From an uncultured Winogradskyella sp. (GTDB taxonomy: Bacteria > Bacteroidota > Bacteroidia > Flavobacteriales > Flavobacteriaceae), in NCBI RefSeq assembly GCF_947498005.1, contig NZ_CANMIW010000007.1:124001-188000 (forward strand): 64,000 nucleotides of DNA. Direction: 5' to 3'. The notes beneath the pieces are model-generated. The model searched no databases. It was not told where the DNA came from and saw nothing but the letters and a program-made list of their open reading frames with translations. Made by a program: the position numbers and the translations under genes. Shown here one piece after another: positions 23,383 to 27,730 of the stretch. Numbering within the stretch: the stretch's first letter is position 1; every line of letters begins with the position of its first letter.

Positions 23383-24059
23383 TTGCTTTTTGTTTTAAGT
23401 TCAAAAGTTGAGCTTATTATTAACTGTGGTAATTTGCAGTTAACTATAGACTACATCTAAAGGTACAAAATTTGTAGAGATTCCTGTCTTCACAAGAATT
23501 AGGCGTGCTATTCTGGATTCCTCTTAATAAGGAAGTGTAAGTGAAGTTTTATGTTTTGCCAGAATGGTTTCATGTTCTACAAATATCGAAAAATTATTTG
23601 AGATATTGAAACGAGATAATAAAGGGTAGCATAAACCAATAAGAAATATTTTTGTTAAACTCCAAATAGAAAATTGTTGAAGTTTAAGTTTTATTAATCA
23701 GCTAATTACGGTTTTCACGTAATTAAAAAAATTTTAGAAAATTCTCACATTTCCTTTGGTGGTTCCTATTTTTTTTTTCTAGATTTACAGAGTTGCAAGC
23801 ATGATTATAAGATATTTAGAAGTTACTTACAAGATTGCAATCAACAAAAATGTTAACATATAGCTTGTGCAAGCTTTTTTAATTTTATCCCTTAAAAATA
23901 ATACAGATAGCACAAAATAACTTCTACCTCTCATACCCTTAATATGAGACAACAAATAACTTCTAAAATTTAAAAAACTTCTATTCCCTAAATTTTAGGG
24001 CGAATTTATTTATTAACCAACCTATCTTAAAAAATGTGATGGGTTTAAAGTTTTAAATT
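23383..24059. promoter_or_regulatory. Repeat-rich 677-base intergenic region between divergent units
   Basis: No gene of convincing size is seen. It holds, in order: a palindrome TACAAA-A-TTTGTA (23464-23476), a decayed dispersed hairpin (23477-23500), AACTTCTA elements at 23919-23926, 23958-23965 and 23976-23983 with an inverted copy at 23817-23824, an inverted repeat CTCATA / TATGAG (23930-23935, 23943-23948), and a palindrome CCCTAAA-T-TTTAGGG (23986-24000), 60 bases before the next start. I found no standard TAnnTTTG promoter for the downstream operon. Confidence 0.45.
23477..23500. repeat. Decayed copy of a dispersed hairpin (GAGATTCC type)
   Basis: GAGATTCCTGT-CTTC-ACAAGAATT forms an ATTCCTGT / ACAAGAAT stem with one mismatch and a CTTC loop. 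The same GAGATTCC start and short loop recur at 38809-38832 and 43114-43138. Confidence 0.55.
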
Positions 24060-24302
24060 ATGAAGAAAAAAGTATTTAGCCTTATGGCTGTGGTAATGTT
24101 TATGAGCACAATAGTAAGTGCAACTCCAAAAGTAGAGTTCGAAGAGTTTGGAAGGGCATCTGATTGCGCAAGGTATTGGAGAAATGCAATACTAACTTTA
24201 GCAGCTAACAATGGAGCCGATGCTAATACAGATATTATAAATCCAACTATGAGTTATATGGAAGCTTATATGATTGGTTATAATGGCTGTCTAAATGATT
24301 AA
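24060..24302 (+). CDS. Small exported two-cysteine protein
   Basis: Protein of 80 residues, not recognised as a named family. MKKKVFSLMAVVMFMSTIVS is a clear signal peptide, leaving about 59 mature residues that are acidic and contain two Cys (in SDCARYWRN and YNGCLND), placed so that a disulfide could close the chain. The middle has AANNGADANTDI and YMEAYMIGYNG. It overlaps the following GLPGLI gene by 8 bases, which implies tight co-expression with it and with the receptor after it. It could be a secreted ligand, an inhibitor or a small envelope protein; I have no evidence to choose. Confidence 0.75.
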   Translation: MKKKVFSLMAVVMFMSTIVSATPKVEFEEFGRASDCARYWRNAILTLAANNGADANTDIINPTMSYMEAYMIGYNGCLND

Positions 24303-25035
24303 GACAAAATATTTGTCAATATTTATTTTGACCTTGTATATGAGCATTCAAGGTCAAAATAATAAATGCGGAGAAGTTACTTACGAAGTAACTTATGACA
24401 ACACATTAATTTCATTAGATAGCGAGTTTGGAGATAAAGAAGGAATTGAAGGTGCAAACAAACTAATTAGTGACGCAGAAAGTATTACTGCTACATTAAG
24501 TTTTAATGAAAATGAATCTTCCTATTCGACCGATAAAAAACTAAATATTGACAAAGAAGGAGGAATAAATATTACCTTTTTATTTGCTGGTGGAAATAAT
24601 GTCTTTTATCACTCTAAAGATTCTTTAAGTTTACTTCAATCAAATTCTTCACTTGGCAAGACATATCTCATAAAACGTGATGCGCCTAAATGGATTATAA
24701 CTAAAGAAACAAAAAAAATTGATGACTTAACCTGTTATAAAGCATATACCATTAAATCTAACAATAAAAATGATGATGAAAATATAACTGATAAAATTGG
24801 TGCAATAGCCTGGTTTTGCCCAAGTATTCCATTAAGTTATGGTCCTGTAGAATTTTTTGGTTTACCAGGATTGATTATTGAATTGAAATATTCAAAGATG
24901 ACTTACATTGCAAAAAAAATTAAATTAAACAAAAAAAATGTTCGTGTCGAAAAGCCAATTGATGCAGAAATTATAACCATTAAGGAGTTTAATCTTTTGG
25001 CTAAGAAAAAAGTTCCCTCATTTTTTGATAATTAA
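24295..25035 (+). CDS. GLPGLI family protein
   Basis: Exported protein of 246 residues of the GLPGLI family, found in Bacteroidota. The signal is MIKTKYLSIFILTLYMSIQGQ. The family-naming motif is visible as FFGLPGLIIELKYSK near residue 190, after the usual WFCPSIPLSYGPVEF. The function of this family is not established, but members often stand beside TonB-dependent receptors, as here. It overlaps the small exported gene upstream by 8 bases and the receptor gene downstream by 11, so the three genes form one coupled unit. Confidence 0.92.
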   Translation: MIKTKYLSIFILTLYMSIQGQNNKCGEVTYEVTYDNTLISLDSEFGDKEGIEGANKLISDAESITATLSFNENESSYSTDKKLNIDKEGGINITFLFAGGNNVFYHSKDSLSLLQSNSSLGKTYLIKRDAPKWIITKETKKIDDLTCYKAYTIKSNNKNDDENITDKIGAIAWFCPSIPLSYGPVEFFGLPGLIIELKYSKMTYIAKKIKLNKKNVRVEKPIDAEIITIKEFNLLAKKKVPSFFDN

Positions 25036-27730
25036 AAATTTAAATAACAATTTATTTTATTTGTCAATCCTACTTATTAAAGTAGGGTTTTCTTCTATGA
25101 TTAATGCTCAAGAAATCCAAGTTACAGGCAAAGTAACTGACTCATCTCAAAACCAACTTCCCTATGCTAATATCCTTGCTGTACCAAATACCGAGAATCA
25201 GGAAATAAGATTTGCCATTACAGAAAAAGACGGCAGCTATAAATTAAGCTTAGTAAAAAATATTTCTTACGACATAACAGTTAGTTATTTGGGCTATAAA
25301 CCCAATATTCATTCCTTAATTTCAATCAACCAGGATTTAATTAAAAATTTTGTTTTAATCGAAAAACCAAACCAATTGGATGAGGTTACTATCAATTATA
25401 TACCACCAGTTGTAGTAAAAACAGATACTACTACCTATGATATAACAAAATTTGTAACTGGCGAAGAACGTAAACTACGAGATGCCTTAAAAAAATTACC
25501 TGGTGTAGAAGTAGATAGGGAAGGTAATGTAATGGTACAGGGTAAAAAAGTAACCAAAGTCTTAGTAGAAAATAAAACCTTTTTTACTGGCAACAGTAAA
25601 CTCGCTGTAAATAATATACCTGCAGATGCTGTAGAAAAAGTAGAGGTCTTAGACAACTATAATGAGGTTGCCATGCTTAAAGGTTTGCAAAACTCTGAGG
25701 ATATGGCAATGAATATATTACTAAAAGAAGATAAAAAGAAGTTTGTGTTTGGCGATATTGAGGTTGGTGCTGGTATTAAGGAACGTTACCTTGTGCATCC
25801 TAATCTTTTTTATTATAGCCCAAAAACGAATCTAAACTTTATTGGAGACTTAAATAACCAAGGTATAAAAAGCTTTAGTTTCAGTGATTACTTAGAGTTT
25901 GAAGGAGGTTTTGGCAAACTCTTAGATGATGCTGGTAGTTATTTTAGTCTTTTTAATAGTGATTTTGCGCAATACCTCAACAACCAAGATTTTACAGATA
26001 ATATTAACCAATTTGGCGCTTTAAATATTAGGCAGTCGGTTTCTAAACATACAGATGTTAGTGGGTATTTAATTACCTCTAACTCTAAAACCCAAACAGT
26101 TAGTAACACTTTAAATACTTACCAAAATATTAGCGACCCTTTTACAGAAGACAGAACGGTTACTAACAACCTAAACAACTTTTTTACCATTGGTAAACTA
26201 ACCATAGATTATGACCCAAGTTATAAAGAAGACTTTGCGTATAATGCTTTTGTGAAAGTGACCAATAATGATAGTTATGGCTTAATAAATACTATAAGCT
26301 TAGATGATACTAATAATATTACTACACTAACTGATGTCACCTCTTTTAATCTAAAACAAAATATAAGTTATAGCCGTAAACTATCAAAAGTACATACTGC
26401 TACTTTAGAAGCTACTTATAATTTTCAGAATGACAAACCATTAACAGAATGGCTGACTAATCAGCAAATATTGCAAGGTTTAATTCCTTTAGAAGATGAA
26501 GATGTGTTTAATATTCTTCAAACTAAAAAATCAACGTCGCACAATTTTAATGCCATTGTTAAAGATTATTGGGTGCTTAATAACTTTAATCATCTATACA
26601 CAAGTGTTGGTGTTAATTTATCTTTTAATGATTTCTACAATAAAGACGTACAGTTACTAAATGATGGCACTAGCAATGATTTTAGCTCTGCTGGTTTTGG
26701 GAATGATTTCATATATAGTTTTGCTGATACGTATTTAGGCTTAGAATATAAATTTCAAATTGGTAATGCTACTTTTAAACCTGCGCTATTTTATCATGGT
26801 TATCTATGGCGTACACAACAGTTTGAGAATGCAGAAACATTTTCTAAAAATCTACTTTTACCACAATTTACAACCAAAGTAGATTTTAATAATAGTGAGA
26901 AACTAAATTTTAGGTATAAACTAAATGCGCGTTTTCCTGGTATTAACCAATTAGCTAATAATTTTCTATTATCTAGTTTTAATAGCGTTTACAAAGGGAA
27001 TAGCGACTTAGAAAATCAATTGTATCATTCCGCAACCCTTAGTTACTATAAATTTAGTTTATTTAGAAACTTAAATTTTAACCTTAATACTAGTTTTAAC
27101 AAACGTACAAAAAGCATAAAAACAGTTACAGAACTCAATGGTATAGAATCCTTTAATACAGCAATTATGTTTAATCAACCAGAACATAATTGGACCGTTA
27201 GTGGACGTGTTTCAAAAAAGATAAAAAAAATACGTTATAACTTGAGTGGTCGTTATAGTTATAATGATGTTTATCAAATCTTAAATGAGGACACCAATCT
27301 TAATATTTCAAAATCTATATCCTCAACAGTTGGTATTGAAACTTTTTTTAAAAATCATCCCAATATAGAAATTAATTACACTAAAGATTTCAGTAATTAT
27401 AAAGCTTCTAACAACACGTCTAAGTTTGAAAACGACAAATTAGAAATCATTCTAGAATACGATTTTTTACAAGACTTTATCTTTAAGGCAGACTACACCT
27501 TTGATAATTACAACAATAAAAATCAAAGTATTAACAACACTTTTGATACTGCAAATGCATCCCTATTTTACCAAAAAGAAGATAGCCCTTGGGGTTTTGA
27601 GATTAATGGGACTAATTTATTTGATGTAACATTTAAACAACAAAATTCATTTAATTCTTATCTTATAAGTGATAACAAAACATTTGTATTACCTAGAATT
27701 TTGATGTTTAAGATTAGTTATAATCTTTAG
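25025..27730 (+). CDS. TonB-dependent receptor-like outer-membrane protein (CarboxypepD_reg, OMP barrel)
   Basis: Outer-membrane protein of 901 residues. The start is a TTG that overlaps the GLPGLI gene; no ATG lies before the signal-like segment (LFYLSILLIKVGFSS ... INAQ). A CarboxypepD_reg-like domain (about 30-110) is followed by a plug-like region with EERKLRDALKKLPGVEVDRE and AVEKVEVLDNYNEVAMLKGL, and then a large barrel of the OMP_b-brl_3 type. It lacks the classical RGF-type plug signature, so it may not import in the usual way. It is the last gene of the operon and ends at a repeat terminator. Confidence 0.85.
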   Translation: MIIKNLNNNLFYLSILLIKVGFSSMINAQEIQVTGKVTDSSQNQLPYANILAVPNTENQEIRFAITEKDGSYKLSLVKNISYDITVSYLGYKPNIHSLISINQDLIKNFVLIEKPNQLDEVTINYIPPVVVKTDTTTYDITKFVTGEERKLRDALKKLPGVEVDREGNVMVQGKKVTKVLVENKTFFTGNSKLAVNNIPADAVEKVEVLDNYNEVAMLKGLQNSEDMAMNILLKEDKKKFVFGDIEVGAGIKERYLVHPNLFYYSPKTNLNFIGDLNNQGIKSFSFSDYLEFEGGFGKLLDDAGSYFSLFNSDFAQYLNNQDFTDNINQFGALNIRQSVSKHTDVSGYLITSNSKTQTVSNTLNTYQNISDPFTEDRTVTNNLNNFFTIGKLTIDYDPSYKEDFAYNAFVKVTNNDSYGLINTISLDDTNNITTLTDVTSFNLKQNISYSRKLSKVHTATLEATYNFQNDKPLTEWLTNQQILQGLIPLEDEDVFNILQTKKSTSHNFNAIVKDYWVLNNFNHLYTSVGVNLSFNDFYNKDVQLLNDGTSNDFSSAGFGNDFIYSFADTYLGLEYKFQIGNATFKPALFYHGYLWRTQQFENAETFSKNLLLPQFTTKVDFNNSEKLNFRYKLNARFPGINQLANNFLLSSFNSVYKGNSDLENQLYHSATLSYYKFSLFRNLNFNLNTSFNKRTKSIKTVTELNGIESFNTAIMFNQPEHNWTVSGRVSKKIKKIRYNLSGRYSYNDVYQILNEDTNLNISKSISSTVGIETFFKNHPNIEINYTKDFSNYKASNNTSKFENDKLEIILEYDFLQDFIFKADYTFDNYNNKNQSINNTFDTANASLFYQKEDSPWGFEINGTNLFDVTFKQQNSFNSYLISDNKTFVLPRILMFKISYNL

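Follow-up and report, generated by a model that had tools for sequence, protein, structure and literature searches.

Polymorphic toxin systems and the bacteroidetocins are among the described systems closest to the locus reported here. The accessible part of PMC3482391 describes the immunity proteins of polymorphic toxins as mostly cytoplasmic. Bacteroidetocins, according to the accessible part of PMC6671954, possess a 15–16-residue leader that is cut after GG, a mature part of ∼42–48 residues, and a nearby peptidase-ABC transporter. For the GLPGLI family, no function was found in the accessible text of the literature searched, and in the available part of PMC9603813 GLPGLI appear only as gene names within a regulon. 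Here, we analyzed a 64,000-nucleotide stretch (the window) from an uncultured Winogradskyella sp. of the Flavobacteriaceae (contig NZ_CANMIW010000007.1, positions 124,001–188,000), in which three + strand genes encode a small exported protein with two cysteines, a GLPGLI protein, and a predicted outer-membrane barrel. This locus is one allele of a polymorphic locus and not a fixed operon, a property that is invisible from one genome and was missed by an initial annotation made from the window alone. A fairly constant barrel is preceded by an exchangeable pair, consisting of the small two-Cys protein and its own GLPGLI protein. The accessible part of the literature searched held no description of such a locus.

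The members of the module are conserved to very different degrees. Across the 12 triads with orthologous barrels (>70% identity to the window barrel, P0003), mean pairwise identity is 82% for the barrel, 47% for the leader of the small protein, 34% for GLPGLI, and 26% for the mature small protein. The mature part varies together with GLPGLI, the distances of the two being correlated over 37 cassettes with a Mantel r of 0.80 (p 2e-4); for the leader and GLPGLI, r is 0.15 (p 0.02). This test used 37 of 56 GLPGLI rows. Left out were 17 rows in which the rule detected no small gene (core-type loci, additional GLPGLI copies, contig ends, and L166, the GLPGLI start of which was called too early) and 2 further rows with a small gene by the loose Cys rule only. 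The correlation of the mature part with GLPGLI persists when only pairs with <35% GLPGLI identity are considered (r 0.35, p 5e-4), and nearest neighbors agree in 17 of 31 dereplicated cassettes versus 1.02 in shuffles. Over 18 full triads that include other genera, the mature part correlates with the barrel with r 0.22 and with GLPGLI, given the barrel, with r 0.82. In the set of 12 orthologous triads, correlations between GLPGLI and individual barrel segments do not exceed 0.23. Matched types are found again in different genera, as exemplified by L038 with L062 and L045 with L162.

Traces of exchange are found in L039 (inferred W. costae) and L045 (genome G321), which share a pair. Synonymous divergence (dS) is 0.02 for the small gene and 0.12 for the GLPGLI gene, and outside the pair it is 0.81 for the flanking gene hgd and 0.65 for the barrel gene. 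The two loci are 92–98% identical per 100 bases from ∼130 bases before the small gene to about 50–75 codons into the barrel gene. The shared pair stands at the full barrel in L039; its counterpart in L045 has been shifted upstream and terminates with a barrel stub of 80 residues. Displaced pairs were also found in L038, L041, L046, L047, L147, L163, L166, and L211, and such pairs persist as arrays that carry cut barrel starts. The window-type pair itself, located at the barrel in the window, is displaced in L038. Genome G309 carries a deletion scar, in which nothing but the 5′ element and a barrel end of 225 residues is left. The pair can move between species as a block, whose limits are the conserved 5′ leader region on one side and the beginning of the barrel gene on the other.

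The small gene (24060–24302, ATG start) encodes 80 amino acids. Its leader (residues 1–21) is of the Sec type and ends V-S-A at residue 21, as judged by eye. The mature part (residues 22–80) comprises 59 residues, with cysteines at positions 36 and 77 of the precursor, and the charge is −4 when counted from residue 23, in agreement with the initial annotation of an exported two-Cys protein with an acidic mature part of ∼59 residues. Compared with L038 (inferred W. psychrotolerans E3R09), the small gene shows a nonsynonymous divergence (dN) of 0.11 and a dS of 1.22, corresponding to a dN/dS of 0.09; leader (0.02) and mature part (0.13) are both constrained. Two further pairs gave 0.19 and 0.25, and a fourth gave 0.47. 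The fifth pair, L039/L045, yields 2.42 on a dS of only 0.02, which is too few changes to judge. The small frame is under purifying selection and is more than a chance open reading frame (ORF).

Only M1, C36, and C77 are invariant in 35 aligned small proteins. The predicted model contains helices at residues 33–50 and 66–79 (block pLDDT 74–83 from residue 31 onward), and a disulfide between C36 and C77 probably closes a helical hairpin. The window protein matches nothing in Pfam, NCBIfam, or PHROGs at E ≤ 1; likewise, the family profile has no match among PDB sequences at E ≤ 1, nor does the model match a PDB fold at E ≤ 0.001. Family scans of 22 small proteins gave scattered weak hits, the best being an IseA-type inhibitor in NCBIfam (3/22, E 1.6e-05) and DUF6520 in Pfam (1/22, E 0.0067). 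The mature small protein is acidic in all but one of the 37 cassettes, with a median charge of −8. The exception is the cationic protein of L053 (+7; genome G224, another genus), where GLPGLI is preceded by two consecutive small genes and the barrel shares only 21% identity with P0003.

The second gene (24295–25035, 246 amino acids, ATG start) overlaps the first by 8 bases and the third by 11, so that the ORF coordinates bear out the overlaps noted initially. Its product, P0002, is a GLPGLI protein as annotated, scoring 127.1 bits with TIGR01200 (cut-off 50) and 57.4 with PF09697 (Porph_ging; cut-off 25). The name-giving motif occupies residues 189–194 (24859–24876), of which L190, P191, and G192 are invariant in 37 cassette members; further invariant residues include Y30, L68, W133, I142, C147, A150, W173, and G183. 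GLPGLI proteins occur in all 68 Winogradskyella genomes searched. Those of the cassettes are positively charged in 25 of 37 cases, with a median of +4. A model of P0002, built on six sequences, is of low confidence (pLDDT 59.8, pTM 0.57). The nearest fold to it is the N-terminal region of PNGase F-II (Foldseek E 4.9e-06; Z 10.0–10.7), followed by RseB/MucB (Z 6.6–7.1) and LolA, LolB, and LprG (Z about 5–6). RseB and MucB are peptide-binding proteins, and LolA is a lipoprotein carrier. Although these folds align with the GLPGLI model, sequence identity is at most 15%, and the likeness is no proof of the same job. The GLPGLI profile gave chance-level matches only against PDB sequences.

The barrel gene (25025–27730, TTG start) encodes the TonB-receptor-like protein P0003 of 901 amino acids. 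CarboxypepD_reg, located at the N terminus, and CarbopepD_reg_2 both exceed their cut-offs, and the former confirms the initial assignment. The accompanying statement that a classical plug signature is missing holds at the curated cut-off only (Plug 16.7 bits versus 23.9 in Pfam), because residues 121–240, where a plug would lie, are the best conserved part of the barrel (93% mean identity in 12 orthologues). Among 23 barrel members, 22 carry CarboxypepD_reg and 6 match Plug at E ≤ 0.01. In the PDB, the family profile aligns with the N-terminal regions of SusC homologues and of one TonB-dependent receptor.

The module is patchily distributed in the genus and extends beyond it. The single small-protein sequence matched 15 of 68 genus genomes at E ≤ 0.1 and, among 299 family genomes, 12 at the same threshold, all weak beside the query. 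Two of these weak matches (G141 and G224) proved true with a profile of 22 small proteins, and the regions L048, L054, and L056 were rejected for want of a GLPGLI neighbor. The profile itself matched 45 of the 299 family genomes at E ≤ 0.01. Of the 30 loci that it returned, 13 are followed by GLPGLI and barrel genes, namely the window and 12 genomes from 12 other Flavobacteriaceae genera; the remaining 17 have no GLPGLI or barrel gene and were discarded as low-complexity or leader-only matches. Relatives of the small protein are therefore found beside GLPGLI genes elsewhere, so that the refuting condition set by the initial annotation does not apply, and the gene order in Winogradskyella and 12 further genera, together with the joint inheritance of the first two genes, supports its notion of one module of three parts. 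When a 35-row profile was run against 345 genomes of the class, 13 matched at E ≤ 0.001. The region in G608, a member of the Flavobacteriaceae, shows an array, and the eleven matches from other families were assessed on their score and frame length alone.

Full-length barrels at least 60% identical to P0003 are present in 16 of 68 genus genomes, and partial or split ones in G331, G338, and G301. A small exported two-Cys gene accompanies the barrel in all 14 evaluable genomes of these 16, G341 and G344 being cut by contig ends. In G361, it lies at the far end of an array, with a broken GLPGLI frame next to the barrel, and the barrel-proximal small gene of G321 has an unusual short start. Among all 26 GLPGLI rows with a barrel of >800 amino acids, a small gene accompanies 20 (18 detected with the profile and 2 with the Cys rule). 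The other six comprise two contig ends, L166 (where the small gene is visible on reading), and L154, L156, and L159, which have none; the barrels of L154 and L156 are 41 and 34% identical to P0003. In several genomes, GLPGLI-barrel loci lie near hemB/hemA/ferrochelatase-like genes, as named by eye from the translations (L216 5456–9689 and 10726–11940, in G314:C8; L154, L157, and L158). A few of them have two GLPGLI genes, L157 has a small two-Cys gene, and this is possibly a second site for such modules.

A covarying hairpin (24019–24045, arms 24019–24026 and 24038–24045) precedes the start codon of the small gene. In an alignment of 29 of the 37 cassettes, 94.9% of the cells are paired versus 84.3% in shuffles, a percentage that is favored because the cassettes were picked for an element visible by eye. 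Cells with double changes number 20 versus 3.8, and slid controls reach at most 53.5% pairing. An operator reading of this element is disfavored: retained U-G pairs (13/26 at one pair) and a variable loop length rather suggest RNA. In the 68 genus genomes, a model of the hairpin gave 31 hits distributed over 20 genomes, with a single hit in the window's own genome; many of these hits are training rows. Eleven were read. Three belong to cassettes whose small gene is intact (L167, L181, and L187), L182 (G306) is a divergent triad that escaped the small-protein profile, L188 has a broken small gene, and L186 is the scar in G309. The same hairpin at the same site after hgd is followed by a different exported set in L212 (4423–5559), L213 (4348–5886), and L214 (4066–5717), composed of a ∼182-amino acid Cys-containing lipoprotein and a ∼200-amino acid protein, to which L213 and L214 add a ∼140-amino acid protein.

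Further upstream, three direct repeats of ACTTCTA (23915–23983, p 0.005 versus dinucleotide shuffles) substantiate the repeat-rich promoter region of the initial annotation. Direct repeats are significant in 20 of 37 cassettes versus 2 of 80 control regions, with related cassettes counted apart and 100 shuffles for the controls versus 200. The repeat unit is lineage-specific (e.g. GACTTCT, GACTTTG, CTCGTTA, CCTTGTA, TTAGACT, and CGGCTTT). A change of unit is seen at 23915–23983 of the window and in L049, L052, L148, and L162–L165, and most of these promoters still repeat their unit. A Bacteroidetes-type promoter was not found before the small gene. A terminator-like palindrome (agcttg-tgc-aagct with a T run, by eye) lies before the repeats at 23862–23881 and recurs in several cassettes.

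We tentatively favor, with somewhat less than even confidence, a module in which an effector-like secreted protein is the cargo of a dedicated GLPGLI carrier and is served by a shared TonB-receptor-like barrel. The binding, the export, and the roles that we infer for its parts would be as follows. The small protein would be exported by Sec and fold as a disulfide-closed helical hairpin. GLPGLI, a putative half-barrel of the PNGase-F-II-N/RseB/LolA kind, would bind it in the periplasm through its variable part and dock to the shared barrel through its conserved part. The small protein might then cross the outer membrane through the barrel or be held at the surface. The fast change of the pair suggests a use against or between close relatives, in competition or recognition. 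The reading draws on the conserved gene order, the joint variation of the mature part with GLPGLI, the block transfer, the arrays with their barrel stubs, the selection on the small frame, the two invariant cysteines, the two-helix model, and the folds nearest to the GLPGLI model. The acidity of the small proteins and the anti-correlation of their charge with that of GLPGLI (r −0.39, p 0.007) also speak for it.

Several observations weigh against this reading. Homology for recombination lies only outside the pair, and linkage alone could therefore yield the joint variation; the pair is a unit of inheritance, and physical contact is not implied. When other genera are included (18 triads), GLPGLI distances also correlate with those of the barrel (r 0.49). 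The GLPGLI model has the low pLDDT given above, and Z values under 8 may reflect a common arrangement. The charge correlation is uncorrected for kinship, and a basic character is found among core GLPGLI proteins as well. GLPGLI-barrel loci without a small protein occur in the genus. As a control, the best-scoring GLPGLI gene was taken from each of 30 Winogradskyella genomes; their length and score mark these genes as core-type. Within the 420 bases upstream, the profile detected a small gene for none of them (0/30) and the loose Cys rule for two (2/30). The initial annotation had raised the question whether the small protein always stands before GLPGLI and barrel genes; it is absent, by the profile, from these core-type genes and from L154 and L156. 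Moreover, the hairpin precedes other exported proteins in 5 of the 11 loci read (L178, L183, L185, L193, and L194), three of which follow hgd like the window.

Hypervariable linked pairs, block exchange, and arrays, as known from polymorphic toxin loci, would also fit a bacteriocin-like toxin whose periplasmic immunity protein is GLPGLI and whose exporter or kin-cell receptor is the barrel, the arrays keeping old immunity genes. Such an arrangement is possible, yet we consider it unlikely on balance. Extra GLPGLI copies without their own small gene (L045, L147, and L211), a damaged small gene beside an intact GLPGLI gene (L051), and unusual short small-gene starts (L042 and L045) speak for it, but L040 combines an intact small gene with a broken GLPGLI frame, which may be a sequencing error, and L149 and L211 contain small genes without their own GLPGLI. 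Because L051 and L040 are opposite, broken copies do not separate immunity from cargo loading; the two readings differ in the effect of GLPGLI loss. The small proteins are also acidic, unlike most membrane-active peptides, and core GLPGLI genes lack any small partner.

The resemblance of the barrel to TonB-dependent receptors, in its CarboxypepD_reg, occasional Plug, and SusC matches, would suit a secreted protein that binds a metal, cofactor, or glycan and whose loaded form enters through the barrel with the help of GLPGLI. A single-ligand binder should retain its ligand residues, however, and here only M1 and the two cysteines are invariant; together with a barrel far more constant than the pair, this renders uptake improbable. 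Different modules apparently occupy the site after hgd downstream of a common 5′ element, and this, the patchy presence of the full barrel, and the scar in G309 might indicate a mere hot spot that gathers exported-protein modules by recombination, with the small gene as a dispensable passenger. We regard this as very unlikely, given the dN/dS values of the four judgeable pairs and the retention of the Cys pair and the gene order in distant genera.

If the cargo-and-carrier reading is extended, the barrel could be the shared exit of a new outer-membrane export and recognition system whose cargo is a hypervariable family of small proteins with a disulfide bond, a dedicated GLPGLI carrier loading each of them. 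Cargo–carrier pairs would be swapped between species by recombination, giving each strain its own secreted identity or weapon, and the GLPGLI-barrel loci of the core type in Bacteroidota would represent fixed versions of this export principle. This extension is speculative, and we hold it to be rather doubtful as a whole. If true, it would give the GLPGLI family its first function. The hypervariable partner is in any case a first handle on that family, as matched and mismatched pairs make binding, export, and inhibition testable. Should the pair serve competition or recognition, the locus would be a polymorphic secretion locus of marine Flavobacteriaceae.

With TonB-dependent receptors of the SusC/CarboxypepD_reg kind, the barrel shares, by its sequence, the N-terminal CarboxypepD_reg, a weak plug match, and the N-terminal SusC profile match. 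It differs in its Plug score under the cut-off and in its operon with GLPGLI and a hypervariable small protein; a SusD partner was not seen in the locus. Bacteroidetocins, as far as the accessible text portrays them, are likewise small Cys-containing exported products of Bacteroidota, whereas the window leader (MKKKVFSLMAVVMFMSTIVSA) is Sec-type and has no GG. No peptidase-ABC transporter was seen among the translated window ORFs near the locus, which were inspected without a family scan, and the neighbors are GLPGLI and the barrel. The likeness to polymorphic toxin systems, again within the accessible part of their description, lies in a variable effector-like gene genetically linked to a variable partner, and further in a more constant transport part, neighboring extra cassettes, and recombinational exchange. 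Their toxin is the C-terminal domain of a large protein, whereas the variable part here is a separate 80-residue Sec-type protein that has no domain match and is not known to be toxic, and the GLPGLI partner is predicted to be exported, in contrast to their mostly cytoplasmic immunity proteins. Within the GLPGLI family itself, the window gene belongs to a cassette subgroup that is hypervariable and paired with a small protein, whereas the core-type genes of the genus are unpaired.

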